Shown here: piece after piece, positions 4,784-58,643 of the stretch | How positions within the stretch are numbered: position 1 is the stretch's first letter | How the letters are laid out: each line of letters starts with the position of its first letter | From: Rhodopirellula europaea 6C | Lineage (GTDB): Bacteria; Planctomycetota; Planctomycetia; Pirellulales; Pirellulaceae | Assembly (NCBI RefSeq): GCF_000338295.1 | Contig: NZ_ANMO01000011.1 | Coordinates: 62,001 to 126,000, forward strand | Direction of reading: 5' to 3' | Length of the DNA: 64,000 bases | Translations under genes and position numbers: made by a program | Notes under the pieces: generated by a model | Database searches by the model: none | Told to the model about the DNA's origin: nothing | What the model saw: only the letters and a program-made list of their open reading frames with translations

Positions 4784-7186
4784 CTATCCCAACGTCATCG
4801 TCTCGATGCGTTCTTGCGGCGGCGATGAAGCCTGAGGTTCCTCGGCCGCGCGTCGTTCATCTTGGGTTGTCACCCGTCGCACGACCCACCAAAGGAACAG
4901 TGTCATCGCCAGAATGGAAACGATTGCAAACGCTCCTTCGAACAGCAGCGAACGACGAAGCTCCGCCACCGGCCCAAGCACTTCCGACAATCGATACTGA
5001 ACCAACACGAGCAAATCGGTCTGCTCGACCGAAGGAATGGGCAACTGCCCACCAGACACAACTTCTTCACCATGATCTTCAGCAACGTCCGCAGCCCCGG
5101 CCGCGGTGGTTGGCCTTGGCAAGGTGACCGGCTCCATCGCTGCGATCCACTCGCCGCCGAAACCGTTGCCCTCCGAAGCGACTGCCATTGGGTCGCGATA
5201 GCCCACATCGCCGCCTTCGAGCAAACGGTCCATCGTCGCACCATCGACCTGATAGCTCTTGTCCGAAACCGTTTGCCCTTCTTCTCGCAATTGATCCATC
5301 AGCGGATGCTGCAACACGGTTCCACGAAGATCGCCTTCGCGTGCCTCCACCAACACCGCCACCTGACTGGGATTGGCCGTGTCCGACTCATCTCCAGAAC
5401 GCGAACGCTGCAACAATTGGAAATCGCCAAGGTTGATCGTCGCCACAAACACCGCATCAGGATCGCGGTCAGGTGTCTCGCGACGACCGCTGACAATGAC
5501 GCCGCTTTCTTCCAACCAAAGCGGAGTGCTGATCGCGACCTTCCACATCTTTGTCGCCGTACTTTGAAACGCCGAACTCAAGTGAGTGTGGCGAAGCGGC
5601 GACACCGAATCCATCGGAATCGTTGAGGGGTAGTCGTCCTTGCGTCCGGTGAAATAAGTCCGGTAAGCAAAGTTTCGGCCGACGCTGTTTTGTGCTCGCG
5701 GGACTGATTTCCCGTAAACGATCGTCATGATCGTTCCCGCCCCATCGGTCACAAACATCGTCGCCAGTCGCTGGCGAGGCTTGCCCGGTTCGGAAGGCTG
5801 CCGGTACTGCGCCAACCGCTCGGACAAGTATTCATCCAGCCGCAACTGCGCCGGATGCTCCAACAGAATGTCCCGAGCCGCGAGTGCGTCTTCGCGAACG
5901 AGCGCATCGACCGGCGTTGCAGAAGACGCGATGCGATCCAACACCGGCTTGGACGTTTCCCCTTGGATCAAATCGGCCAGCAACGTTTCAAATGTTTCCC
6001 GCTGAGCCTCCTCGTGAACCAAGTCAAAGTAGCGTTGGATTTCAGTTTCCAAAGTTTGCGCGGCCAAACGTGCCGCGAATTGGTTGCTTCCAAACGCTTC
6101 GGTTCGCAACTCTCGCGTTGCCGTCCGCGTCGCCAAATCAATGCTACGCGCACCAAAGAAACAGGTGGCCAACAACAGCAACAACGGGCCGACGATTCCC
6201 AGCAACATCAACGGTCGTCGCGATCGCGCTTTGTCGCGGACGGTCAGATCATCCAAGATCTGTTGAACGTTGCTGTAGCGAGATTCGGGATCAACTTCCA
6301 AACAACGCTGCATGATCTTTCGCAGCGATCGATCAACGTCACGCCGCGACAATTGCTCGGCTGCCGGCGGCGCCAAAGCGATCGCCTCGCGATACCGAGC
6401 CAACCGGCCGGGCAATGATCCCGCCGTATCCAATTGCGACAATAACGCTTGATCGCGATGCGGTGCCGACCCCGCCAACATTCGAAACAAAATCGCTCCC
6501 GCCGCGTAAACGTCCCAACGCGCATCAGGCGACGATTGGAAATCGGCTTGCTCGGGAGCCATGTAAAACAGCGTTCCCATCGCGGGCGTCTGATCGTGCG
6601 ACATTCGGCTTTGGCCAAAGTCAGCCAAGCGTGGTTCGTTGTCCGCGGCCAAAAGAATATTGGCGGGCTTGATGTCGCAGTGCAGCACACCTTTGCCGTG
6701 ACAATGGTTCAAGCCAATCAAGATCTTGCGGAACAAGTCGACCGCTTCGGCTACCGGCAACCGTCCACGGCGGACCAGCATGTCCTCCAGCGAACCACCT
6801 TCGATCAGTTCCATCACGTAGTAAGGCGGATCGGCGTCCCAGCCAACCTCGAGCACTTGCACCACGTGACGGTCAGCTGACAACTGAACCAAGTTCTTGA
6901 CTTCGCGAGACAGCAAAGACCAGTTCACACCACCACGGTGCAAATAGAACTTCACCGCCACGCCGCGACCGGTGTTGATATCACGGCCAACCCAAACCTG
7001 CCCAAACGCACCTGATCCGAGAAAACGTTGCAGCCGAACACCGGGAACTTCCGCGGGCGGCATCGTCGCCCCCAACGACAAACGACGCGCGGCCGCTTGA
7101 CCACCGATCGTTTGCGACTCGGTCATCGGCTCCCTCGAAGCTTCGGGCTGACGAGGCGGTTCCGAATCGGGAGACGGTGGCGGCAT
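4784..7186 (-). CDS. Receptor-type Ser/Thr protein kinase with Cache-like sensor domain
   Basis: The 800-residue protein is laid out as a cytoplasmic Hanks-type kinase (about 50-320), one transmembrane helix (about 325-345, RRPLMLLGIVGPLLLLLATCFFGA), a large extracytoplasmic region of about 400 residues, and a second helix near the C-terminus (FAIVSILAMTLFLWWVV). The kinase shows the glycine loop GSGAFGQVWVG, VAVKFY with the ATP lysine, the catalytic loop HCDIKPANILL, DFGQ and the MAPEQ segment. HCD replaces the usual HRD, which suggests an RD-independent kinase not controlled by loop phosphorylation. The extracellular part carries a Cache-type pattern (DGAGTI..., NSVGRNFAYRTYF, W.VAISTPLW). 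The start is ATG 7186, or GTG 7192, which would overlap the upstream epimerase stop by four bases. Stimulus and targets are unknown. Confidence 0.85.
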   Translation of the reverse strand: MPPPSPDSEPPRQPEASREPMTESQTIGGQAAARRLSLGATMPPAEVPGVRLQRFLGSGAFGQVWVGRDINTGRGVAVKFYLHRGGVNWSLLSREVKNLVQLSADRHVVQVLEVGWDADPPYYVMELIEGGSLEDMLVRRGRLPVAEAVDLFRKILIGLNHCHGKGVLHCDIKPANILLAADNEPRLADFGQSRMSHDQTPAMGTLFYMAPEQADFQSSPDARWDVYAAGAILFRMLAGSAPHRDQALLSQLDTAGSLPGRLARYREAIALAPPAAEQLSRRDVDRSLRKIMQRCLEVDPESRYSNVQQILDDLTVRDKARSRRPLMLLGIVGPLLLLLATCFFGARSIDLATRTATRELRTEAFGSNQFAARLAAQTLETEIQRYFDLVHEEAQRETFETLLADLIQGETSKPVLDRIASSATPVDALVREDALAARDILLEHPAQLRLDEYLSERLAQYRQPSEPGKPRQRLATMFVTDGAGTIMTIVYGKSVPRAQNSVGRNFAYRTYFTGRKDDYPSTIPMDSVSPLRHTHLSSAFQSTATKMWKVAISTPLWLEESGVIVSGRRETPDRDPDAVFVATINLGDFQLLQRSRSGDESDTANPSQVAVLVEAREGDLRGTVLQHPLMDQLREEGQTVSDKSYQVDGATMDRLLEGGDVGYRDPMAVASEGNGFGGEWIAAMEPVTLPRPTTAAGAADVAEDHGEEVVSGGQLPIPSVEQTDLLVLVQYRLSEVLGPVAELRRSLLFEGAFAIVSILAMTLFLWWVVRRVTTQDERRAAEEPQASSPPQERIETMTLG

Positions 7187-41361: not shown

Positions 41362-41433
41362 GTCGCGGTAGGGACGACCGTTTCCGGTCGCCCCCCGCAC
41401 AGATCCGTACGTGAGTGTTGTCTCATACGGCTC
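41362..41433 (-). ncRNA. Group II intron domains V and VI
   Basis: Domain V covers 41402..41433: it starts GAGCCGTATGAG and ends CTCACGTACGGATC, with the AGC triad and the CG bulge before TACGG. Domain VI (41362..41400) has the stem GGGCGACCG-GAAA-CGGTCGTCCC with a bulged A in CTACC, the branch point. The tip of domain V (ACAACA) lacks the usual GNRA loop. Confidence 0.75.
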
Positions 41434-42916
41434 CTGCCTTGATTCGGGCGCGAAATCTTTGATCTGGATACGGGTGGCTGACTTTGGCTGGAGGCAAGTA
41501 GATCCGCAGCAGACGCTTCATCCGCGACCACGGCCAGCGATGACGCTGGCTCCGACGCCGCAGCGCACGCAACCACAGACGGCTGACCTCGTCACGAAAT
41601 CGACGCAGTCGGCTCACGTTGCCCGGGACGGCATAATAGGCCATCCAACCACGAACCACCCTGCCAAGCCAACGGCCTTGCTGGCCGATCCCCTGGTGGC
41701 GCCGACGATGAAGTTTCGCTTTGATTGCCGAGAGGGTATGAGCCATCCGGCTCGCGATCGTCTCGCGGCGAATCATGAACCAACCCTTCTTCGCGCTGGT
41801 ATCACAGCGATGTGTGAAGCCGAGAAAGTCGAACGTTTCCGGTCGACCTTCTCCACGCTCGGACCGTCGTTCGATCGCGTAACGACCGAACTCGATCAAG
41901 CGTGTCTTCTCGGGATGAAGCTCCAGGCCAAACTTCCCAAAACGCTCCCGGAGTGCTTCCAGGCACATTTCAGCCTCAGCCTTGCTCTCAAACCCGATCA
42001 CGAAATCATCGACGTACCGAACCACAACGACGTCCTTGCGGCCGCGTTGCTTTCGCCAGTGGTCGATCCACAAGTCCAACACATAGTGAAGATAGATGTT
42101 CGCTAGCAGCGGCGAGATCACCGCTCCTTGCGGAGTCCCCACCGTCGTCTTGGACCATTCCCCGTCTTCGCTGACACCGGCTCGAAGCCATTTGCCAATC
42201 AGACGGAGAATCCGCTTGTCGCTAATGCGATGCTCGATGAACTTCATGAGCCACTTGTGGTCCACGTTGTCAAAGAAGCCTTTCACATCGGCGTCCAGAA
42301 TCCAGTTCACTCTTTTCCTGCTCACGCCAACACACAACGCATCGAGTGCGTCGTAAGCGCCGCGACCAGGACGGCCGCCATAACTGAATCCGAGAAAATC
42401 CTGCTCGTAGATGCACTGCATCACCCACGCAGTGGCCTTTTGGACAATCTTATCCTCCAGGGCCGCGATGCCGATCGGACGTTGCCGTCCATCGGCTTTG
42501 GAAATGTAGATTCTCTTGGAGGGTTTCGCTCGGTAGGCGCCCCGGTGAATGCGACCGTGGAGAGCCTCGATCGAGGCTTCCCGGTCTTGCTCGTACAGTT
42601 GCCAAGTCACTTCGTCGATGCCAACCGCGGCAGACTTCTTCAAAGCATCGAAGGCCTCGTGCAGCAGCGGAACGTTGATGTGATGCAACAGGTTCTCGAA
42701 CTTCAGCGTGGGACGATCCCTCGCTGTTTCGCGCACACCCGACAGCCCGCGTGAACGACGCTTGGTCCGACTCGAAGTTCGGGGTCGATCGTGCTGCAAG
42801 GTGTTCATCTTGGCTGAGTCCCTTTCCTCGACGGACTCCGCGACCGGTTCAGTTCCGGCGTTGTTCGCCCGCGTCGGCGGTACTATGGACTCATCCGACT
42901 TCCGATCAGCGTTCAT
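41423..42916 (-). CDS. ltrA: Group II intron reverse transcriptase/maturase
   Basis: The 497-residue protein has the RT domain: KSAAVGIDEVTWQLYEQ, PSKRIYISKADGRQRPIGIAALEDKIVQKA, the thumb and palm with VVVVRYVDDFVIGF (YVDD active site), TPQGAVISPLLANIYLHYVLD, and a C-terminal group II maturase part (WFMIRRETIASRMAHTLSAIKAKLH). No HNH endonuclease domain is visible at the C-terminus. ATG 42916 (MNADRKSDESIVPP) is preferred to GTG 43018; GGGAAAGG lies a few bases upstream of it. The stop TGA (41425) falls inside domain V, so the last codons (AGAV) overlap the catalytic RNA. Confidence 0.9.
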   Translation of the reverse strand: MNADRKSDESIVPPTRANNAGTEPVAESVEERDSAKMNTLQHDRPRTSSRTKRRSRGLSGVRETARDRPTLKFENLLHHINVPLLHEAFDALKKSAAVGIDEVTWQLYEQDREASIEALHGRIHRGAYRAKPSKRIYISKADGRQRPIGIAALEDKIVQKATAWVMQCIYEQDFLGFSYGGRPGRGAYDALDALCVGVSRKRVNWILDADVKGFFDNVDHKWLMKFIEHRISDKRILRLIGKWLRAGVSEDGEWSKTTVGTPQGAVISPLLANIYLHYVLDLWIDHWRKQRGRKDVVVVRYVDDFVIGFESKAEAEMCLEALRERFGKFGLELHPEKTRLIEFGRYAIERRSERGEGRPETFDFLGFTHRCDTSAKKGWFMIRRETIASRMAHTLSAIKAKLHRRRHQGIGQQGRWLGRVVRGWMAYYAVPGNVSRLRRFRDEVSRLWLRALRRRSQRHRWPWSRMKRLLRIYLPPAKVSHPYPDQRFRARIKAGAV

Positions 42917-43203
42917 GGCAGCCTTTCCCGCTGGACGGTTCGCTGCCCGTGCAGCCAGCGAGCAAGCTCGCCGCCGCAACTGATCGGATCTCCCGGTTCT
43001 CGCGATTGAGATTTCCACGCATGCACAGGTTCCCCAGACTCCGCCGTGTCCGCGCCGCTCTCGCCATACGCGAGCGTCGCGATTTCGCCTTCCCCGTAGA
43101 GGGACCAGGTCGGCACACGGAAGTTCAGATTTCGGAGCTCAATAGCTGGCCTGCGTTTCCCCCTTGCCGGACGCTCAGCGCGGATCGGTTACCCTCTCCG
43201 CAC

Positions 43204-43528
43204 CTCCGGTGGAGGCCATAGCAGTTGGCTAAACTTTCTACGTAGGACACTTTCATTCCCTATCTCAATCCGGTTTATCCCGGCACTCCCCTCACCCTCG
43301 CGTACGCCTGAACGGCGTCACTCGACCTCTCCCCAAACTTCGTTTCGGGAGAGGTACGCCGTGTAAAAATCTGCCGAAAAGCGGTATTAGAAAACTGCAC
43401 GACCTCCAGATTGGGCACGATCGTCACAGCCGGACCAGGAACCAACTTGGCTCGGCCTTCCTGCTAAACTGTTCGCCCCCCGCCAATGCTGGCGCCCCAT
43501 CCTCGCCCTACCTGCTCCACATCCCACC
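43204..43528. other. Non-coding DNA upstream of the sulfatase with hairpins
   Basis: About 325 bases from the intron 5' end to the sulfatase start. It contains a perfect eight-pair hairpin, CCTCTCCC/GGGAGAGG (43326..43354), and one half of the flanking inverted repeat at 43391..43406. No gene was accepted; the plus-strand promoter of the sulfatase may lie between 43400 and 43528. Confidence 0.5.
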
Positions 43529-51378: not shown

Positions 51379-52971
51379 ATGTCCGGCAACTTGAATCCCC
51401 CGATCGATCCATCTCCCGATGCGACCGCAACGATCGCTGCCAAAGACCACGGGATCCCCATTGGGCTGGCAACCCGCGAAATCACAGCGGCCCTGGTCTG
51501 GACCTTTGCCGCGGACGTGCTGATTTTTCGCCTCGCTACCTACCTCTCCGTGGCGATCTTCTTGGTTCTGACGCCTATTCTCTTCCGGTACGCGGCGACC
51601 AGCCGACCTCATAGTCGGTCGCTCGCGGTCTGTGGTATGTTGTCCGCTCTCGTTGCTTTGCGTTTGCTTTGGCAAGGCTCACCGCTTGCGATCGGTTCGG
51701 CGATCTTGTTGATCGTGGCGATGTCGATGGCCGCCAGCGGCGTCGTCCCTTTCGTGCTAGAAGGGTTTCTTTGGTTCGGACGCAGTTTGGGCGACGGAGC
51801 CAACCGCATTTCCCGCTACCGGATGACTCATCAAGCGATCGACCAAGTCCGCAACCACCACCGTCTGGCGTCGATCCTGCTGCCGGCCGCCGCGGTCTTG
51901 GCGTTTGGCGGGATTTTCGTGATGGCCAACCCCGATTTGGTTTCTTGGGTTGGGACCCACGTTCGCTCCGCTTGGAAGTTCACCTTCAACTGGCTGAGCA
52001 ATTTCTCGGTTTGGGAAATCCCGTTCTGCGTCTTGGCGTTGACCATCGGTGTTGGATTGATTCGCCCCCTTCGTCCTTTCCTTCGATTCGGTAGCACCAC
52101 CGAAGACGAATCGATTTCCACGACTGCGGAATCGGGACTGTACTCCGCCTATCGCAACACGCTGATTGCGGTGACCAGTCTTTTCGCCGCCTACCTCTGC
52201 TTCGAATTCTGGACGCTTTGGCGGCGAGATTTCCCCGAAGGGTTCTACTACGCGGGATACGCTCATCAAGGCGCAGCGTGGTTGACCATCGCTTTGGGCC
52301 TGGCGACCGTTTCGTTGTCGATCATTTTCGGACGCAGTCTCTTGGCCGACCCTCGCATGCCGCAAGTTCGACGATGGGCATGGATCTGGTCGGCAGAAAA
52401 CCTGTTGCTCGCCTTGGCGGTTTACAACCGGTTGATGATTTACATCGGCTACAACGGAATGACTCAACTGCGGATGGTCGGGTTGTTCGGAATCACTGCC
52501 GTCGTGATCGGATTCGCTTTGGTTGTCTACAAGATCGCCAAGACCAAGAACTTTTGGTGGCTGCTCCGATCTCAGATGCTGGCTTTGACCATCGTCGTGA
52601 TCGCCTACAGCGTCACGCCCGTCGACTATCTCGCCCATCGATACAACGTTTTGCGAGTCAATGCCGGGTACTCAGCACCATCAGTGATGCTGGCTGTCAA
52701 ACCGATCAGCGACGAAGGTTTGCTGTCGACGTTCCATCTGCTCGAACACCCCGATCCGATTATTCGAGAAGGCGTTCAAGCTCGCCTGGCAATTCGCGAA
52801 GCAGAGCTGTCCGCAAAGTTGACGACTCAATGGAGTGAACAACAAGGAGCCACCCGAATGCTCGCGTCTCGATTGGCCGATCACCCGGAGCTCTCCACGC
52901 GATTCGCCAATCCCGCCGAACGCCGGTCCACCCTGCAACGTTTCAAAGACTACGCCATGCAGTGGTATTGA
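51379..52971 (+). CDS. DUF4173-like polytopic membrane protein
   Basis: The 530-residue protein has about ten to twelve hydrophobic segments and the DUF4173/DUF4153 type motif WRRDFPEGFYYAGYAHQGAAWLTIALGLATVSLSI, which sits in the fifth or sixth segment, as in the family. The C-terminal 80 residues (HLLEHPDPIIREGVQARLAIREAELSAKLTTQWSEQQ) are a soluble alpha-helical tail. The function is unknown. ATG 51379 is preferred to 51316, because AAAGG lies ten bases upstream and the sequence before it does not look coding. The gene is followed by the REP array. Confidence 0.7.
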   Translation: MSGNLNPPIDPSPDATATIAAKDHGIPIGLATREITAALVWTFAADVLIFRLATYLSVAIFLVLTPILFRYAATSRPHSRSLAVCGMLSALVALRLLWQGSPLAIGSAILLIVAMSMAASGVVPFVLEGFLWFGRSLGDGANRISRYRMTHQAIDQVRNHHRLASILLPAAAVLAFGGIFVMANPDLVSWVGTHVRSAWKFTFNWLSNFSVWEIPFCVLALTIGVGLIRPLRPFLRFGSTTEDESISTTAESGLYSAYRNTLIAVTSLFAAYLCFEFWTLWRRDFPEGFYYAGYAHQGAAWLTIALGLATVSLSIIFGRSLLADPRMPQVRRWAWIWSAENLLLALAVYNRLMIYIGYNGMTQLRMVGLFGITAVVIGFALVVYKIAKTKNFWWLLRSQMLALTIVVIAYSVTPVDYLAHRYNVLRVNAGYSAPSVMLAVKPISDEGLLSTFHLLEHPDPIIREGVQARLAIREAELSAKLTTQWSEQQGATRMLASRLADHPELSTRFANPAERRSTLQRFKDYAMQWY

Positions 52972-53061
52972 GGTTTGGAAACTGAATCATTCGTTCAAAC
53001 CGAGCTTTGGTCGTGTTTTGGAAGGCTTTTGATGGTGCAAAGTTTCCGGCCAGCGACCATC

Positions 53062-53225
53062 GCCAGGTACAACCTGGCCTACGCTAGAGCAACGCCGTAG
53101 GCCATGTTCCACATGGCATCCGAGCCGATGCTTTGGAACAAAGCGAGGCGTGATCGCGACCGAACATCCCATCGGTGTGGTGAGTGATCCGGCCAGCAAC
53201 CACCGCCAGGCTGGGCCTGGCCTAC
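53062..53225. repeat. REP array left of the RAYT gene
   Basis: REP units: minus 53062..53082 (GTAG plus GCCAGGT-TGT-ACCTGGC); plus 53097..53117 (GTAG plus GCCATGT-TCC-ACATGGC); minus 53205..53225 (GTAG plus GCCAGGC-CCA-GCCTGGC). The plus and minus units at 53097 and 53205 bound one exact 129-bp unit (53097..53225) also seen twice on the other side of the RAYT gene. The minus unit at 53062 is the tail of a truncated unit; the 14 bases before 53097 match the inter-unit spacer on the other side. Between the REPs lies a GCTTTG-GAA-CAAAGC hairpin. Confidence 0.88.
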
Positions 53226-53245
53226 GTGTGTCTTCGTGGCGAACC

Positions 53246-53806
53246 TCACGGTTCGCCCCAATTGGTTTTGTTGGCTCGCCCAAACTCCGGATCCGTTCCG
53301 CCCCAATCCAATTCATACTGGCCTTCTTCCACAAATCGATGAAACCTCGAAAAAGGATAGTCGCCCACTCGACTGACCAACCCGTGCTTGCGAGGGTTCC
53401 AGTGAAGGTAGTCCACGCATCGTTCTAAATCTTGTTCGTCTCGAACGGTGTGTTCCCAAAACCGAGATTGCCAGATCCCTTTCCTGTTCTGGCGTCGCTC
53501 GCCATCCGTAACGGGCAAGTCCACTCCGCCACCATCTAGGTAACGCTGCGTGAAGCACTTCTTAATCACTTGCCACCGAGCCGAGTAGTCCGAATCCCCA
53601 CGCGGCAGAATCCAGACGCAATGCAAATGATCGGGCAACAGGCAAATCGCAAACAGGTTGAACGGATGCGTCCGGATCTGCTCTTCCATGGCTTGTCTCA
53701 AACAATTCCTTGCGAGACCAGATCGAAACAAAGGACGACGTCGGTAGGTCACCAAAGTGAAGAAAAAGGTTCCGCCCGGAAGATGCTTGCGACGAAAGTT
53801 TGACAT
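53246..53806 (-). CDS. REP-associated tyrosine transposase (RAYT, Y1/HUH type)
   Basis: The 186-residue protein carries the RAYT N-terminus FRRKHLPGGTFFFTLVTYRRRPLF, the HUH motif LLPDHLHCVWILP, a conserved RxxWQSRFWEHTVRDEQDLERC and the catalytic tyrosine region CVDYLHWNPRKHGLV. It should nick and join single-stranded DNA at REP hairpins. ATG 53806 (MSNFRRKHLPGG) is the family start. The gene stands between two REP arrays, its expected substrates, and is the only transposase-like gene here besides the group II intron. Confidence 0.92.
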   Translation of the reverse strand: MSNFRRKHLPGGTFFFTLVTYRRRPLFRSGLARNCLRQAMEEQIRTHPFNLFAICLLPDHLHCVWILPRGDSDYSARWQVIKKCFTQRYLDGGGVDLPVTDGERRQNRKGIWQSRFWEHTVRDEQDLERCVDYLHWNPRKHGLVSRVGDYPFSRFHRFVEEGQYELDWGGTDPEFGRANKTNWGEP

Positions 53807-53888
53807 CCCAAATTCATAGCAGGTTTGCAGAGGCGATTCCATTTGCAAATTTGAACCACCCCGCCCGACACCAGTGGTCGTTCACGCC

Positions 53889-54160
53889 GTAGGCCATGTT
53901 CCACATGGCATCCACGCCGATGCTTTGGAACAAAGCGAGGCGTGATCGCGACGGAACATGCCAACGGCATGGTAAAAACCCCGGCCAGCGACCATCGCCA
54001 GGTACAACCTGGCCTACGCTTGAGCAACGCCGTAGGCCATGTTCCACATGGCATCCATGCCGATGCTTTGGAACAAAGCGAGGAGTGCTCGCGACCGAAC
54101 ATCCCATCGGTGTGGTGAACAGTCCGGCATACCACCATCGCCAGGTGGAACCTGGCCTAC
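53889..54160. repeat. REP array right of the RAYT gene, two 129-bp units
   Basis: REP units alternate: plus 53889..53909, minus 53997..54017, plus 54032..54052, minus 54140..54160. They form two exact-length 129-bp units (53889..54017 and 54032..54160) separated by 14 bases. Each plus REP is GTAG plus GCCATGT-TCC-ACATGGC; each minus REP is GTAG plus GCCAGGT and a 3-base loop. The second minus loop differs (TCC against TGT, read on the minus strand). The array ends 15 bases before the dnaB stop. Confidence 0.9.
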
Positions 54161-54174
54161 GGGAGAAGCAGGAT

Positions 54175-55623
54175 TTAGAAGCCGCCGGGGCTGGTGAATT
54201 CGCGGTAGTCGTCGAATTCGCTGTGATGTTCCGCGGCGCGATTGCTGAATCGAGTGAAGTCGCCTTCCCAGGTCAGCTCGACATCGCCGACCGGACCGTT
54301 CCGTTGTTTGGCGATGATGATTTCGGCTTGTCCAGCGAACTGAGCCTTGTCTTCGCCGCGGTGATAATACTCCTCACGGTGAACAAACATCACAACGTCG
54401 GCATCCTGCTCGATAGCACCCGACTCACGAAGGTGAGACAGCTTCGGACGGTGATCCTTGCCATCTTCCGCTTGCCGGTTGAGCTGAGACAAACACAGCA
54501 GTGGGACTTCCAATTCCCGTGCCATCCCTTTCAAACGACGAGCGATCTTTGCAACCTGCTCCTGCCGAGGGTCACGTGAGTTGTCCGGTTCAATGAGCTG
54601 CAAATAGTCAATCACAATCAGCCCAAGACCGTCTTCTTTCCGCTTGATCCGACGAGCCGCTGCGGCGATTTCGCTGACCGTTCGACTGGGCGAATCATCC
54701 ACGAAAAGCGGAGCTTGGCTGATGTCGTTGGCTTTGGAAACCAAGCGGTCGCGGTCGTCGGAACTGATCGTCCCGTTTCGCAAACGGTGACCGTTCACGC
54801 GAGCCAAACTACAAAGCATCCGGTCAGCCAATTCGATCGCCGACATTTCCAAACTGACGAACAAGACCGGTTCACGTTGAACGATCGCACAATGTTCGGC
54901 GATGTTCATGGCCAGTGCCGTTTTGCCCATCGAAGGACGAGCGGCCAAAATGATCAGCTCACCGTGGTGCAAACCGCCAGTCATTTGGTCAAAGTCCGTC
55001 AGACCGGTTTCCGCACCGCCTTCGACGTAATCATCACGCATCCGTGCTTCCATGCGATCCATCGCTTGGTGCAGCACGTCGCTGATCGCCCAAACCGAGT
55101 TACCCGACCGGCCTTCCATGATCGCGAAAACTTTTTGTTCCGCTTGGGCACACAGTTCCTTCGCGGTACCGGTTTGCTCGTAGGCGTCACGCAGGATCTC
55201 GGTGCCGGATTCGATCAAGCGACGGAACATCGCCTTTTCACGAACGATCTCGCCATAGAAAGCCGCGTGCGCCGCATTGGCAACGCTGCCACCAAGCTGA
55301 GCCAGATATGCAGCCCCGCCGACTTTTTCAAAGTCGCCCGCGGTACGCATCCGAGACACCAGCAACGTAATGTCGATCTTTTCCCCCGAGTCAAACATGT
55401 CTCGAAGGTGGCGATAGATGATCTGGTTGGCTTCGTCGTAGAAGTCATCCGCTTTCAACGACGCGATCTCGTCGCAGATATCGGGCATCAGCAAAACGGA
55501 ACCGATCACGCCCATCTCAGCTTCGCGATCGAACGGTTGCTGCCGAGCAAGGATCTCGCTGGTCGAAGCTTCTTTCTTCTTCTTGCCGCGATGAGGTCCG
55601 TCGAATTTGTTGTCTGCGATCAT
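54175..55623 (-). CDS. dnaB: Replicative DNA helicase DnaB
   Basis: The 482-residue protein has the N-terminal DnaB domain (QQPFDREAEMGVIGSVLLMPDICDEI) and a C-terminal RecA-like motor: Walker A AARPSMGKTALAMN, the VSLEMSAIELADRML block, Walker B LIVIDYLQLIEP, and the DnaB-type LSQLNR and LRESGAIEQDADVV motifs. It unwinds DNA at the replication fork. Length is normal (about 450-480). ATG 55623 is the first codon. The dnaA gene ends 104 bases upstream on the same strand, and dnaB may be transcribed with it. Confidence 0.95.
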   Translation of the reverse strand: MIADNKFDGPHRGKKKKEASTSEILARQQPFDREAEMGVIGSVLLMPDICDEIASLKADDFYDEANQIIYRHLRDMFDSGEKIDITLLVSRMRTAGDFEKVGGAAYLAQLGGSVANAAHAAFYGEIVREKAMFRRLIESGTEILRDAYEQTGTAKELCAQAEQKVFAIMEGRSGNSVWAISDVLHQAMDRMEARMRDDYVEGGAETGLTDFDQMTGGLHHGELIILAARPSMGKTALAMNIAEHCAIVQREPVLFVSLEMSAIELADRMLCSLARVNGHRLRNGTISSDDRDRLVSKANDISQAPLFVDDSPSRTVSEIAAAARRIKRKEDGLGLIVIDYLQLIEPDNSRDPRQEQVAKIARRLKGMARELEVPLLCLSQLNRQAEDGKDHRPKLSHLRESGAIEQDADVVMFVHREEYYHRGEDKAQFAGQAEIIIAKQRNGPVGDVELTWEGDFTRFSNRAAEHHSEFDDYREFTSPGGF

Positions 55624-55726
55624 CCGTGAAGCTGCCGTTGGGGTCGGATGGATGGTTCAAAGAAACGATTCCATTCAATCAGAATGGATGGCGATGAGAA
55701 TGCAAGGCGTTGAGTCATCCGGCGAC

Positions 55727-57463
55727 TCAGCCAACTCGCAAACGTGATTCCACGCGAGCGATGGCGTCTTGCGCCGACATGGCACCGTCGCCGGCGCCGA
55801 TGGGTTTGCCGCTGGACAACCAAGTCTCCACTTTACTGATTGCGGAGATCGCGTTGGAGTGGCTGCGTCGACCAAAATGCTTGGCAATTTCCGTGAACGC
55901 ACTGCCGGTGTGTTGTCGAGCCAAGTACATCGCGAGGGTGCGAGGTTCGCTGACCCGTCTTGTTTGAGCTTTGCCGCGAAGACCGTCGCCTTCAAGTCCG
56001 AATGTTTCGCAGACAGCTTTTTCAATGCTCCGCAGCGTCGGTGCCACCTGGGTACTTCGCAGCAAATCGCCCCCGTAGCGACGAATTTCGTCGATCGTGG
56101 GTTCGCGGCGGAACATTCGCTGGAGCATGCCGATCAGGTTCGCGATTCCGCCGGCCGCGCGAGCGTCGCCGCCAATCAATTCGCTGACTTCTTCCAGCAA
56201 TGTGTTGTCACATCCCAGCACACAGCGGGTCGCCACCATCCGCTGCAACAACTTGAAACGTGTTTCTTGGTCGAGCGCCGCCAGGGGGCAAACCAGCCCC
56301 GATGCCATTCGCCCGGCCACTTCGCCGGTCAATCCGCGAATGTCGCTGGGCGGCAGGTTGGCGGAGAAAACCAGGGGCTTGCCCGCCGATGCCAAGGTTT
56401 CGACGGTGTACAAAGCTTCTCGCAAGGTCGCCGTTTTGGCGGCCAAGAAATGGACGTCATCAATCAACAACGCATCCACGTCACGATATCGACGCCGGAA
56501 GGCGGGCAATCCGGTCGAGCCCACCGACACGACAAAGTCATTGGTGAATTGTTCCGCGGTCAGCAAAACAACGCGACGCATTCGGCGGCGAGTGCGAAAT
56601 TCGTTCGCAAGCGCGGCCAGCAAGTGAGACTTGCCCGTTCCAGTTGGACCGTGCAAGAAAAGCGGTGTGGCAACGGAGGGTGTCGCGACCGCCATCATCG
56701 CCGCGGAGAACGCGAACTCGTTGCAGGGACCGGTGATGAAACTGTCGAGCGTTCGGCCGCCGGTCGGTTGTGATTCGGGAAGCGGTGGAAGTTTGGACTT
56801 CGACGACCGAGGCGTTGAGACGGCGACTTCTTCGTCTTCCAACTCTTCGTCATCGAAGCGTTCCTCGGCTGGCAATTCCGACGCCGCGATTGGGTCGTGT
56901 TCAACGCGACCGCGCGAGCGACCTTTCCCACCGCTAGAGCCACCGGGTTTTTCGCTGCCCGTTGCGGTCGATTGAGCCAGAAGACTGGCGAGACTGTTTG
57001 CTGATCCGCGACGGCCAGTCGATGAGCGTCCACCGGATTGCCGGCCTGCTGTCGCACGAGCGCTGGTTTGACGTGCCGTTGATCGACGGCCACCGCTCTT
57101 CGTTGTCGCTTTCTTTTCAGCAGCAACCTTTGCGGCGCGAGTTCGTTTCTTTGGTGCGGGTTGTTCCGCTTCTTCCACGTCGATGCGATAGCGAGCTCGT
57201 TCACCGCAAGCGATCATTGCCGCGGCGCGCAGTTCGGTCGCAAAGCTGTTGCCCATCCGCTGTGCCGCGAATGGACCGCTGGTGCGGATGACCACCACCA
57301 CGGTTGGCTTGCCATCATCGGGTGAATCGCCGACCTCCAAGTCGAAGCCAACCCCATGGGTGAACCACAACCGGTATCGGTCAGCGCCGATGCGTTGATG
57401 CAAAGCCTCGGCGAACCGCTCAATGGCTTCCTGCGTCTCGATGCTACCTTGCGTCGACGACAT
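55727..57463 (-). CDS. dnaA: Chromosomal replication initiator DnaA, divergent type
   Basis: The 578-residue protein has an N-terminal domain I-like part (AIERFAEALHQRIGADRYRLWF), a long Lys/Arg/Ser/Gly-rich linker (about 115-215), an AAA+ core (Walker A LHGPTGTGKSHLLAA near 271, Walker B ALLIDDVHFLAAK) and a C-terminal domain IV (PRTLAMYLARQHTGSAFTEIAKHFGRRSHSNAISAISKVETWL). The box-reading GGRDHTTV of classical DnaA is GRRSHSNA here. The linker is longer and more basic than usual. ATG 57463 (MSSTQGSIETQEA) gives the family N-terminus. Its promoter lies about 130 bases upstream. Confidence 0.9.
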   Translation of the reverse strand: MSSTQGSIETQEAIERFAEALHQRIGADRYRLWFTHGVGFDLEVGDSPDDGKPTVVVVIRTSGPFAAQRMGNSFATELRAAAMIACGERARYRIDVEEAEQPAPKKRTRAAKVAAEKKATTKSGGRRSTARQTSARATAGRQSGGRSSTGRRGSANSLASLLAQSTATGSEKPGGSSGGKGRSRGRVEHDPIAASELPAEERFDDEELEDEEVAVSTPRSSKSKLPPLPESQPTGGRTLDSFITGPCNEFAFSAAMMAVATPSVATPLFLHGPTGTGKSHLLAALANEFRTRRRMRRVVLLTAEQFTNDFVVSVGSTGLPAFRRRYRDVDALLIDDVHFLAAKTATLREALYTVETLASAGKPLVFSANLPPSDIRGLTGEVAGRMASGLVCPLAALDQETRFKLLQRMVATRCVLGCDNTLLEEVSELIGGDARAAGGIANLIGMLQRMFRREPTIDEIRRYGGDLLRSTQVAPTLRSIEKAVCETFGLEGDGLRGKAQTRRVSEPRTLAMYLARQHTGSAFTEIAKHFGRRSHSNAISAISKVETWLSSGKPIGAGDGAMSAQDAIARVESRLRVG

Positions 57464-57592
57464 ACCGGTTGCGCAGACCTCCCTCATGGATTTTGTTAAC
57501 ACGGGCGACGAATCGGGCGGCCAGCGTGGCTGCGATTCTTCGAAGCGATGAGTGTCGCCGAGTGATGTGCTCCCTCACGACGTTGGGGCAGA

Positions 57593-57619
57593 TTCTAGGT
57601 TTGCTAGCAAACAAGTCAA
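57593..57619 (-). promoter_or_regulatory. Sigma70-like promoter of dnaA
   Basis: On the minus strand TTGACT (-35, 57614..57619) and TAGAAT (-10, 57593..57598) are separated by 16 bases. Each hexamer matches the consensus at five and five of six positions. The expected transcript would start near 57586 and have a leader of about 120 bases before the dnaA ATG. Confidence 0.65.
57599..57612. promoter_or_regulatory. Perfect 14-bp palindrome inside the dnaA promoter spacer
   Basis: GTTTGCTAGCAAAC is a perfect 14-base palindrome filling all but one base at each end of the -35/-10 spacer. A dimeric repressor bound here would block polymerase. It may be an operator for dnaA control. No second copy was seen in the window. 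Confidence 0.5.
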
Positions 57620-57756
57620 ATAGATTGAGTGAAGTTTTGGAGCGTGGAGGCCGACATGGCGAGAGGTCATCCGGCGGGGTCGGGAAATCCCGACTCGTTC
57701 GCGGTCCGAGATCATGACGGAGTCTCTTCAGTGTCGGCAAGGCGAGTTTGGTGACT

Positions 57757-57787
57757 CGTGGAAAATCTGTCGGTAACCTTTTCCACA
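57757..57787. promoter_or_regulatory. DnaA-box-like sites upstream of dnaA
   Basis: TTTTCCACA at 57779..57787 (plus) fits the relaxed TTWTNCACA; TTTTCCACG at 57757..57765 (minus) is one base off. Since the DnaA box-reading residues are altered, these may not be true sites. No origin-like AT-rich repeat was seen beside them. Confidence 0.35.
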
Positions 57788-57938
57788 CAAAACCTTCTTC
57801 AAAATGTCATCCGCGTAAACGACTGCGTGTCAGTCACTTACGAACCACAAACCGTGTTGATAAGAATTTTGGTGCCGAAATCGCCGTTTCGGCACTCCCC
57901 GGGAAGACGCCTCGCCAGCATCCGATAAACTGGTTGTC

Positions 57939-58643
57939 ATGACGAAAGACCTTCCCTTAATGACCGACCTTCCGCGAGCGGAATTGCCTGGCTCGGCATC
58001 GCCAAATCCGGAATCTTTGATCCTGGCTAGCGGCTCCCCGCGACGGGCACAACTGCTCTCCGCGGCCGGATACGAATTCTCGGTTCAACCGGCCGCCGAC
58101 TCCGCCGAGTGTGGAATCTGTAGCCGAGAGACCGCCCCCGAAATGGTGGCACGTCTGGCGTACCGAAAAGCCGCCGATGTGGTCGCACGTATCGACGATG
58201 GTTTGGTGCTGGCCGCCGACACAGTTGCTTCTTGCGTGGGAAACATCCTGGGCAAACCCCACAACCGAGATCACGCCGAAGAAATGCTGCGTTTGCTCAG
58301 CGGACGCAATCACGATGTCTTTACCGGTATCTGTCTTTGGTCACGTCGGCACGAGAAGTTTGTTGTGGATGTCGTTCGAACCCGATTGCAGATGTCGGAA
58401 CTGACGGAGGAGCAACTGAACGAACACCTGGACAGTTTGCGTTGGGAGGGCAAGGCCGGTGCTTTCGGATATCAAGACGGAAACGACTGGTTAAACGTCA
58501 TTGGGAACGATAGTGAAAGCAACGTTGTCGGATTGTCGATGGAACGACTGGCGGAATTGTTGGAAAACTTTGAGCAAAATGCCGAAAAGATAACCACCCC
58601 GACGATCGATTCGATTGAATCATCCGATTCAAGCTGTTCCTAG
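57939..58643 (+). CDS. maf: Maf-family nucleotide pyrophosphatase
   Basis: The 234-residue protein has the Maf motifs LASGSPRRAQLL, VLAADTVA, LGKPHNRDHAEEMLRLLSGRNHDVFTG and EGKAGAFGYQDGNDWLNVI. It hydrolyses non-canonical or methylated NTPs to NMP plus pyrophosphate, and affects septation when overexpressed in other bacteria. The N-terminal ~25 residues before LILASGSPRR and the ~25-residue tail are extras. The start is ATG 57939 (ATG 57960 also possible). It diverges from dnaA. Confidence 0.88.
   Translation: MTKDLPLMTDLPRAELPGSASPNPESLILASGSPRRAQLLSAAGYEFSVQPAADSAECGICSRETAPEMVARLAYRKAADVVARIDDGLVLAADTVASCVGNILGKPHNRDHAEEMLRLLSGRNHDVFTGICLWSRRHEKFVVDVVRTRLQMSELTEEQLNEHLDSLRWEGKAGAFGYQDGNDWLNVIGNDSESNVVGLSMERLAELLENFEQNAEKITTPTIDSIESSDSSCS

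Follow-up and report, generated by a model that had tools for sequence, protein, structure and literature searches.

Results

A RAYT gene lies among inverted REP pairs beside dnaB

The DNA analyzed here, hereafter called the window, is a stretch of 64 kb, wherein positions 53046 to 54160 hold one RAYT (REP-associated tyrosine transposase) gene, three REPINs of 129 bp each, and one half REPIN (Table 1). A hairpin scan recovered seven GTAG hairpins with 7-bp stems and 3-nt loops, in the order minus, plus, minus on one side of the gene and plus, minus, plus, minus on the other. An identical scan of the rest of the window returned a single further match, a 6-bp stem at position 56075. An earlier, sequence-only reading of the window had described the seven hairpins in this order, and both the scan and direct inspection of the sequence bear it out. 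Each 129-bp unit is an inverted REP pair, with a plus-strand hairpin facing a minus-strand hairpin, and all three units carry the inner hairpin GCTTTG-GAA-CAAAGC at 33 bp from the unit start; that reading had already noted a shared inner hairpin.

Table 1. Features of the RAYT locus and its borders (window coordinates).
Feature	Position	Strand	Basis
DUF4153 protein gene bordering the locus opposite dnaB, with uncertain start codon	51139..52971	+	Pfam, 1.8e-20
Half REPIN (3′ part) with complete B-type GTAG REP hairpin 53062-53082	53046..53083	-	Repeat family and hairpin scan
REPIN 1: A-type REP 53097-53117 (+), inner hairpin 53130-53144, B-type REP 53205-53225 (-)	53097..53225	+	
RAYT/TnpA-REP gene, 186 aa	53246..53806	-	NF047646; phmmer with 4er8
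REPIN 2: A-type REP 53889-53909 (+), inner hairpin 53922-53936, B-type REP 53997-54017 (-)	53889..54017	+	
REPIN 3: A-type REP 54032-54052 (+), inner hairpin 54065-54079, B-type REP 54140-54160 (-)	54032..54160	+	
dnaB replicative helicase gene, neighbor anchoring the locus in relatives	54175..55623	-	Pfam DnaB_C, 340 bits, 7.8e-102

Other details of the earlier description needed revision. The three units had been called exact, and they are indeed equal in length, but their sequences are only 84.5 to 86.8% identical to one another. The argument from symmetry is wrong, because the units flank the RAYT gene as direct repeats rather than as mirror images: positions 53046-53226 and 53981-54161 are 90.7% identical over 182 columns. 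The hairpin at 53062-53082, which had been taken for a truncated REP left over from a lost fourth unit, is itself whole, and it is the REPIN around it that lacks its 5′ part. Half units also end arrays in two relatives (G121 and G123); therefore, the half REPIN need not be a recent loss, and a recently truncated fourth unit is not favored.

The neighboring gene had been correctly named as dnaB, which is matched in all 13 genomes of the genus, and the DUF4153 gene adjoins dnaB in the window and in five sub-clade relatives. Also kept in these five relatives is a block in which dnaB, a gene for a DnaA-domain protein (591 aa), and maf are adjacent (window positions 54175-58643). The observation of a RAYT gene with its REPtron at 53046-54160 is confirmed as genuine. 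Elsewhere in the window, parts of a group II intron spanning about 1.9 kb end to end lie on the minus strand at 41362-43253, with matches to RF02005 at 43028-43253 (134.5 bits) and to RF00029 at 41362-41435 (40.6 bits, cut-off 40).

The RAYT protein retains the motifs of TnpA-REP enzymes

By profile search, the RAYT gene product matches NF047646 with 172.2 bits, well beyond the cut-off of 80, and phmmer aligns it with E. coli TnpA-REP (PDB 4er8) over nearly its whole length (1.8e-40), so the assignment made from the sequence alone stands. Translation from the ATG of MSNFRR gives 186 aa, and the open frame reaches back to a TTG at 53848. The motifs HLH, YLHWNP, and WQSRFWEHTVR are intact. HLH and DYLHWNP align with HMH and DYIYINP of 4er8, which represent the HUH motif and the catalytic tyrosine, respectively, and both are likewise intact in the RAYT proteins of the window genome (G000), G123, and G120. 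The stretch WQSRFWEHTVR aligns with WQPRFWEHAIR, thereby matching W94, Q95, E100, H101, and R104, the residues through which the E. coli enzyme is reported to contact GTAG (PMC6006769).

The general IS200 profile, Y1_Tnp, scores 22.5 bits on the protein, just below its cut-off of 23. Insertion sequences of the IS200/IS605 kind carry a TnpA-IS200 type transposase and usually occur in several copies. The RAYT gene does not fit such an insertion sequence, given this profile score and the one group copy in the window genome. In the window genome, one of five NF047646 matches lies above the cut-off and is the single group copy; G123 has a second, distant match above it (83.3 bits). For the one pair compared, G000 and G123, dN/dS is 0.115, and the RAYT gene looks to be under purifying selection.

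REPINs form a dispersed family with a conserved structure

The REPs are dispersed through the window genome. Searches with the 21-nt REP and up to three mismatches gave 70 matches, and a hairpin pattern with 14 fixed bases gave 89, with none for the reversed control in either case. A blast search with a 133-bp unit gave at least 48 matches, with 40 of 79 candidates scored. Note that the window genome is a draft of 273 contigs, and its REP counts may therefore be too low. The 89 pattern matches contradict the idea that the units occur only at this locus, which the earlier reading had named as an outcome that would speak against it.

Loci fetched from five genomes contained 59 inverted REP pairs of 112 to 130 bp. 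The inner hairpin, as searched, was found in the 55 that were aligned and was absent from the other four, and 34 of the 55 carry both an A and a B end. Each REPIN opens with a REP hairpin, followed by the conserved inner hairpin and some 50 nt of variable sequence, and closes with a second REP hairpin.

Alignment of the copies, which had been proposed as a check, revealed a structure kept with compensatory changes. Among the 55 REPINs, 97.4% of cells were paired, compared with 21 to 41% in slid versions. Several stem positions were preset in the search patterns, which biases pairing percentages upward, and the evidence comes from the free positions. Five structure measures were used in all. 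Cells changed on both sides numbered 74, compared with 20.5 in shuffles, and none of 500 shuffles reached this value. Two measures failed to exceed the shuffles. Pairs that had changed on both sides numbered 7, compared with 5.2, and 53 of 500 shuffles got as high as 7; the number of further pair types was 10, compared with 11.3. The outer helix of the inner hairpin (30-33/54-56) has just 82% of its cells paired. Within this hairpin, the pair 41-47 is UA in 37 copies, CG in 15, and GC in 3. A compensatory pair also separates the two REP end types, A with an ATG stem and B with an AGG stem, and a further compensatory stem change, from C:G to U:A, is present in each of the five G122 copies. The aligned copies thus show the REPIN, as a predicted structured element, to be kept by compensatory changes.

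When the flanks of 31 REP loci of the window genome were compared with those of 35 loci of G120, 21 had a flank match, one more was matched through the RAYT gene only, and the remaining nine of the 31, several of them at contig ends, had no match among the 35. A dense cluster of eight REPs lies on contig C113 of the window genome (L218:2079-2632), and the corresponding place in G120 has one REP.

RAYT and REPs share one sub-clade

The hairpin pattern was matched 89 times in G000, 76 in G120, 139 in G121, 20 in G122, 125 in G123, and 81 in G127, and the other seven of the 13 genus genomes had zero or one match. A sample of 119 genomes of the family included nine with any match, the highest count outside the window genome being 3. 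Because the reversed control also gives single matches in other genomes, counts of 1 to 3 are background.

The group RAYT gene is intact in G000, G123, and G120 and split into two frames in G122. A protein search did not find it in G121 or G127, each of which is a single contig. The best NF047646 match is 69 bits in G121, and in G127 it is 84.3 bits, narrowly above the cut-off (80); G123 shares this match (83.3). Sub-clade REPs were not found near the distant RAYT-like genes of G127 (L163) and G123 (L168), nor near the best match of G121. Within the sub-clade, they flank every group RAYT, four in all (G000, G120, G123, and the broken copy of G122), but they adjoin none of the 28 other transposase stretches that were fetched, which represent 25 distinct genes and include the group RAYT of G125, from outside the sub-clade. 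We conclude that this comparison shows the RAYT gene and the REP family to share one sub-clade, and the functional pairing proposed from the sequence, that of a REPtron, is supported by the association.

Among 24 further RAYT loci from this bacterial family, six (L088, L091, L095, L100, L102, and L104) have a different GTAG hairpin of their own repeated on both sides of the gene. This observation bears on the reading that REPs are regulatory or terminator hairpins of the host that cluster here, with RAYT adjacency being coincidental. The persistence of REPs in two genomes without a group RAYT would fit such hairpins. However, we consider this reading very improbable, because the GTAG foot and covarying stems argue against it, as do the different hairpins on both sides of those other RAYT loci and the placement of sub-clade REPs beside four of four group RAYT genes but none of 25 other transposase genes.

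The occurrence of the same units in genomes without any RAYT had been named as a second argument against pairing, and this holds in part: G121 (139 matches) and G127 (81) lack the group RAYT, but distant family matches remain in them. We examined whether other tyrosine transposases serve the REPs there, and this is not favored, given that no sub-clade REPs were present at the two loci examined in each of G121 and G127, out of nine and 18 family matches, respectively. In two trees, G000 is the sister of G121 and G123 the sister of G127, with full support, and each pair has one member with RAYT and one without. Given that both G121 and G127 have a RAYT-bearing sister, we read their state as loss of RAYT with REPs remaining, and REPs left after RAYT loss are likewise reported for E. 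coli (PMC8049555). REPs are as numerous in G121 without the group RAYT as in genomes with it, which gives no support for a present dependence of REPs on RAYT.

REPIN direct repeats bound the RAYT gene at the dnaB site

The dnaB site differs among the six genomes. In G000 and G123, a REPIN array, the RAYT gene, and a second REPIN array follow one another. G122 has arrays, with the compensatory change in their stems, together with an M48 peptidase gene and the frame-split RAYT (L147:4557-7907). G121 has two REPIN arrays as a direct repeat in an equal layout, but around a gene for an HD-domain response regulator and without RAYT (L146:5188-7880). The closest relative of this regulator is in G122 (55%) and has no such REPs within 5.5 kb, so a REPIN-borne cassette that also occurs elsewhere is not favored. 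G127 has one B-REP only, and G120 has no REP but two short frames without a Pfam match.

The single B-REP of G127 joins the two outer flanks known from G123, one on the dnaB side and one on the DUF4153 side, and the sister relationship of these two genomes has a support of 100. Flanks that meet at one REP are expected if an array collapsed between its direct repeats. The genomes compared show the presence or absence of the RAYT gene to be bounded by REPIN direct repeats.

These data lead us to lean, with limited confidence, toward gain and loss of RAYT by RecA-type homologous recombination between direct REPINs, with the transposase having no part in moving its own gene. Looping out would leave a single REP or REPIN behind, and re-entry, of a circle or of a transferred fragment, would take place by a crossover in a resident REPIN. 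Direct repeats suited to such an event flank the gene in the window genome (182 columns, 91%), and G127 retains the outer flanks of G123 joined at one B-REP. Moreover, the genes between like arrays in G121 (response regulator) and G122 (M48 peptidase) are unrelated to RAYT, which makes RAYT specificity unnecessary.

G120 carries its RAYT gene at a second site between two copies of a REPIN

The RAYT gene of G120 lies about 62 kb from dnaB, between two REPINs that are 98.4% identical to each other. At the orthologous place in the window genome, which is on contig C11 near 52014-52136 and outside the window, there is one REPIN and no RAYT. The flanks of this second site align on both sides, and the REPIN alone aligns twice, with positions 6008-6137 of the window-genome locus (L213) matched on either side of the RAYT gene in G120 (L145). 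In G120, GTAG and CTACG mark the two ends of the doubled stretch, outside which about 6 bp adjoining one copy still match the resident flank. In their variable part, the two G120 copies are 0.875 and 0.917 identical to the window-genome REPIN, whereas other aligned REPINs reach 0.57 at most.

The other sub-clade genomes have no such arrangement at the second site. G121 has half of the corresponding REPIN and no RAYT, G122 an array of another REP type, and G123 and G127 are rearranged and without sub-clade REPs. A further GTAG repeat type of G122 (GTAGGTCCGG...), with all copies in one orientation, is found at the second site and nearby (L246:2124-7052). By parsimony, a gain of RAYT in G120 is the simplest reading, with loss elsewhere being possible. 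The G120 RAYT is saturated in dS, compared with values of 0.43 to 1.46 at four neighboring genes, a greater divergence than a move from the dnaB site would predict. It may thus be an import or an ancient paralogue and not the dnaB-site gene transferred to a new place. The position of the genome G120 differs between the two trees.

The recombination account has a difficulty here. A single crossover with a foreign REPIN predicts that one copy carries the donor's variable stretch, but both G120 copies are of the resident type, and a later gene conversion must therefore be added. Integration of a simple circle with a foreign REPIN is not favored without such a conversion.

The same features would suit an insertion by RAYT of its own gene beside a resident REPIN, which would be doubled as a target duplication of about 123 bp through single-strand cutting at GTAG hairpins. 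The doubled stretch from GTAG to CTACG with about 6 bp of resident flank outside it fits this mechanism, as do two nearly identical copies that both have the resident variable part. Nevertheless, we regard self-insertion as rather unlikely, since only one such case was found here and earlier publications describe no evidence that the RAYT gene is mobile (PMC8266576, PMC6006769, PMC2817692, as far as their available text extends).

A different history would place two old REPtrons in the ancestor, at dnaB and at the second site, with G120 keeping one paralogue, the others keeping the other, and the apparently empty site being an excision scar. The unusual divergence of the G120 RAYT speaks for this history, but it requires several lineages to have undergone loss at the second site and predicts that G120 falls outside all dnaB-site RAYT genes. 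Instead, the G122 fragment falls outside G120, albeit with weak support (82/71 and 73/72). Two ancestral REPtrons thus also seem to us an improbable explanation.

The earlier suggestion that the gene was inserted into an existing array draws support from the second site of G120, and at the dnaB site such an insertion may have occurred.

Discussion

We consider it highly probable that the locus is a REPtron, comprising a single RAYT gene for a predicted HUH tyrosine transposase of the TnpA-REP kind and its cognate REPIN family. By analogy with the enzymes from E. coli and Stenotrophomonas, RAYT would bind the GTAG foot and hairpin of a REPIN when single-stranded and would cut nearby via its tyrosine, from which spread of REPINs at a low rate could result. 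The RAYT gene itself might be lost by recombination between flanking REPINs, and it might also be able to enter a resident REPIN and double it.

More tentatively, RAYT genes, though regarded as domesticated transposases that stay in place, may change places in just this manner, by entering and doubling a resident REPIN whole and by departing when the REPINs on either side collapse into one REP. In that case, REPIN arrays would act as docking sites for the exchange of RAYT and of other genes, such as those for the response regulator of G121 and the M48 peptidase of G122. We find this general picture possible but doubtful. If RAYT genes do move in this way, the REPIN population would constitute landing sites for them. 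The patchy distribution of RAYT calls for transfer or repeated loss, and filled, empty, and lone-REP sites within one closely related sub-clade provide a concrete case of REPINs bounding gain and loss. The species of this sub-clade also form a small set for testing recombination against the transposase as the agent.

As far as the available text of three reports goes, there is no evidence, or no typical sign, of RAYT gene mobility (PMC8266576, PMC6006769, PMC2817692). One second-site case cannot overturn this reported immobility, and repeat recombination would explain the case without action of the transposase. A pair of filled and empty sites with the resident REPIN doubled around RAYT was not found in the portions of the cited literature available to us. 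No publication on empty RAYT sites was found either, which is weak evidence because the literature search covered few subscription journals.

Much of what is described here has precedents. REPtrons, REPINs, REPtron deletion, REPs without RAYT, novel RAYT loci, REP heterodimers, and spacers with hairpins are already in print (PMC3733652, PMC8266576, PMC6006769, PMC3686654, PMC2817692, PMC8049555, PMC3116915). R. baltica is named as having several REP families and as one of three cases with "a plethora" of tyrosine transposase genes bordered by repeats; REP dimers in general, according to the same source, may be heterodimers and may have a small hairpin at one end of the spacer, and REPtron deletion in E. 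coli strains is cited there (PMC3733652). GTAG REP families are known from many phyla through that survey, but a comparison of filled with empty RAYT sites was not found in its accessible text.

The E. coli REPtron, with TnpA-REP (4er8) and y and z REPs in BIMEs, resembles the locus in having a RAYT gene beside inverted GTAG REP pairs, in its HUH and tyrosine motifs, and in the aligned GTAG-contact residues. It differs in that the stems here are short and perfect, with 7 bp and without the stem bulge described for E. coli (PMC8266576), and in that the host here is a planctomycete. Closer in REP form are the group 3 REPtrons of Stenotrophomonas and Marinomonas (Mb), for which short perfect palindromes close behind GTAG and a gene bordered by REPs are reported (PMC8266576). 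Unlike in those systems, the REPs here lie in REPINs of 112 to 130 bp, of which 34 of 55 have an A and a B end.

Pseudomonas REPINs consist of two inverted REPs with a spacer and are dispersed through the genome. The present family shares this plan, but half of its spacer is conserved and holds a hairpin. Pseudomonas also provides reported cases of RAYT at novel chromosomal loci, possibly by horizontal gain, and of REPs that remain where RAYT is absent though related strains have it (PMC3686654). Both situations resemble those found here, whereas the available part of that report is silent on any resident REPIN being doubled. Set beside these systems, the locus is an ordinary REPtron, with a well-supported pairing of RAYT and REPs and with informative relatives.
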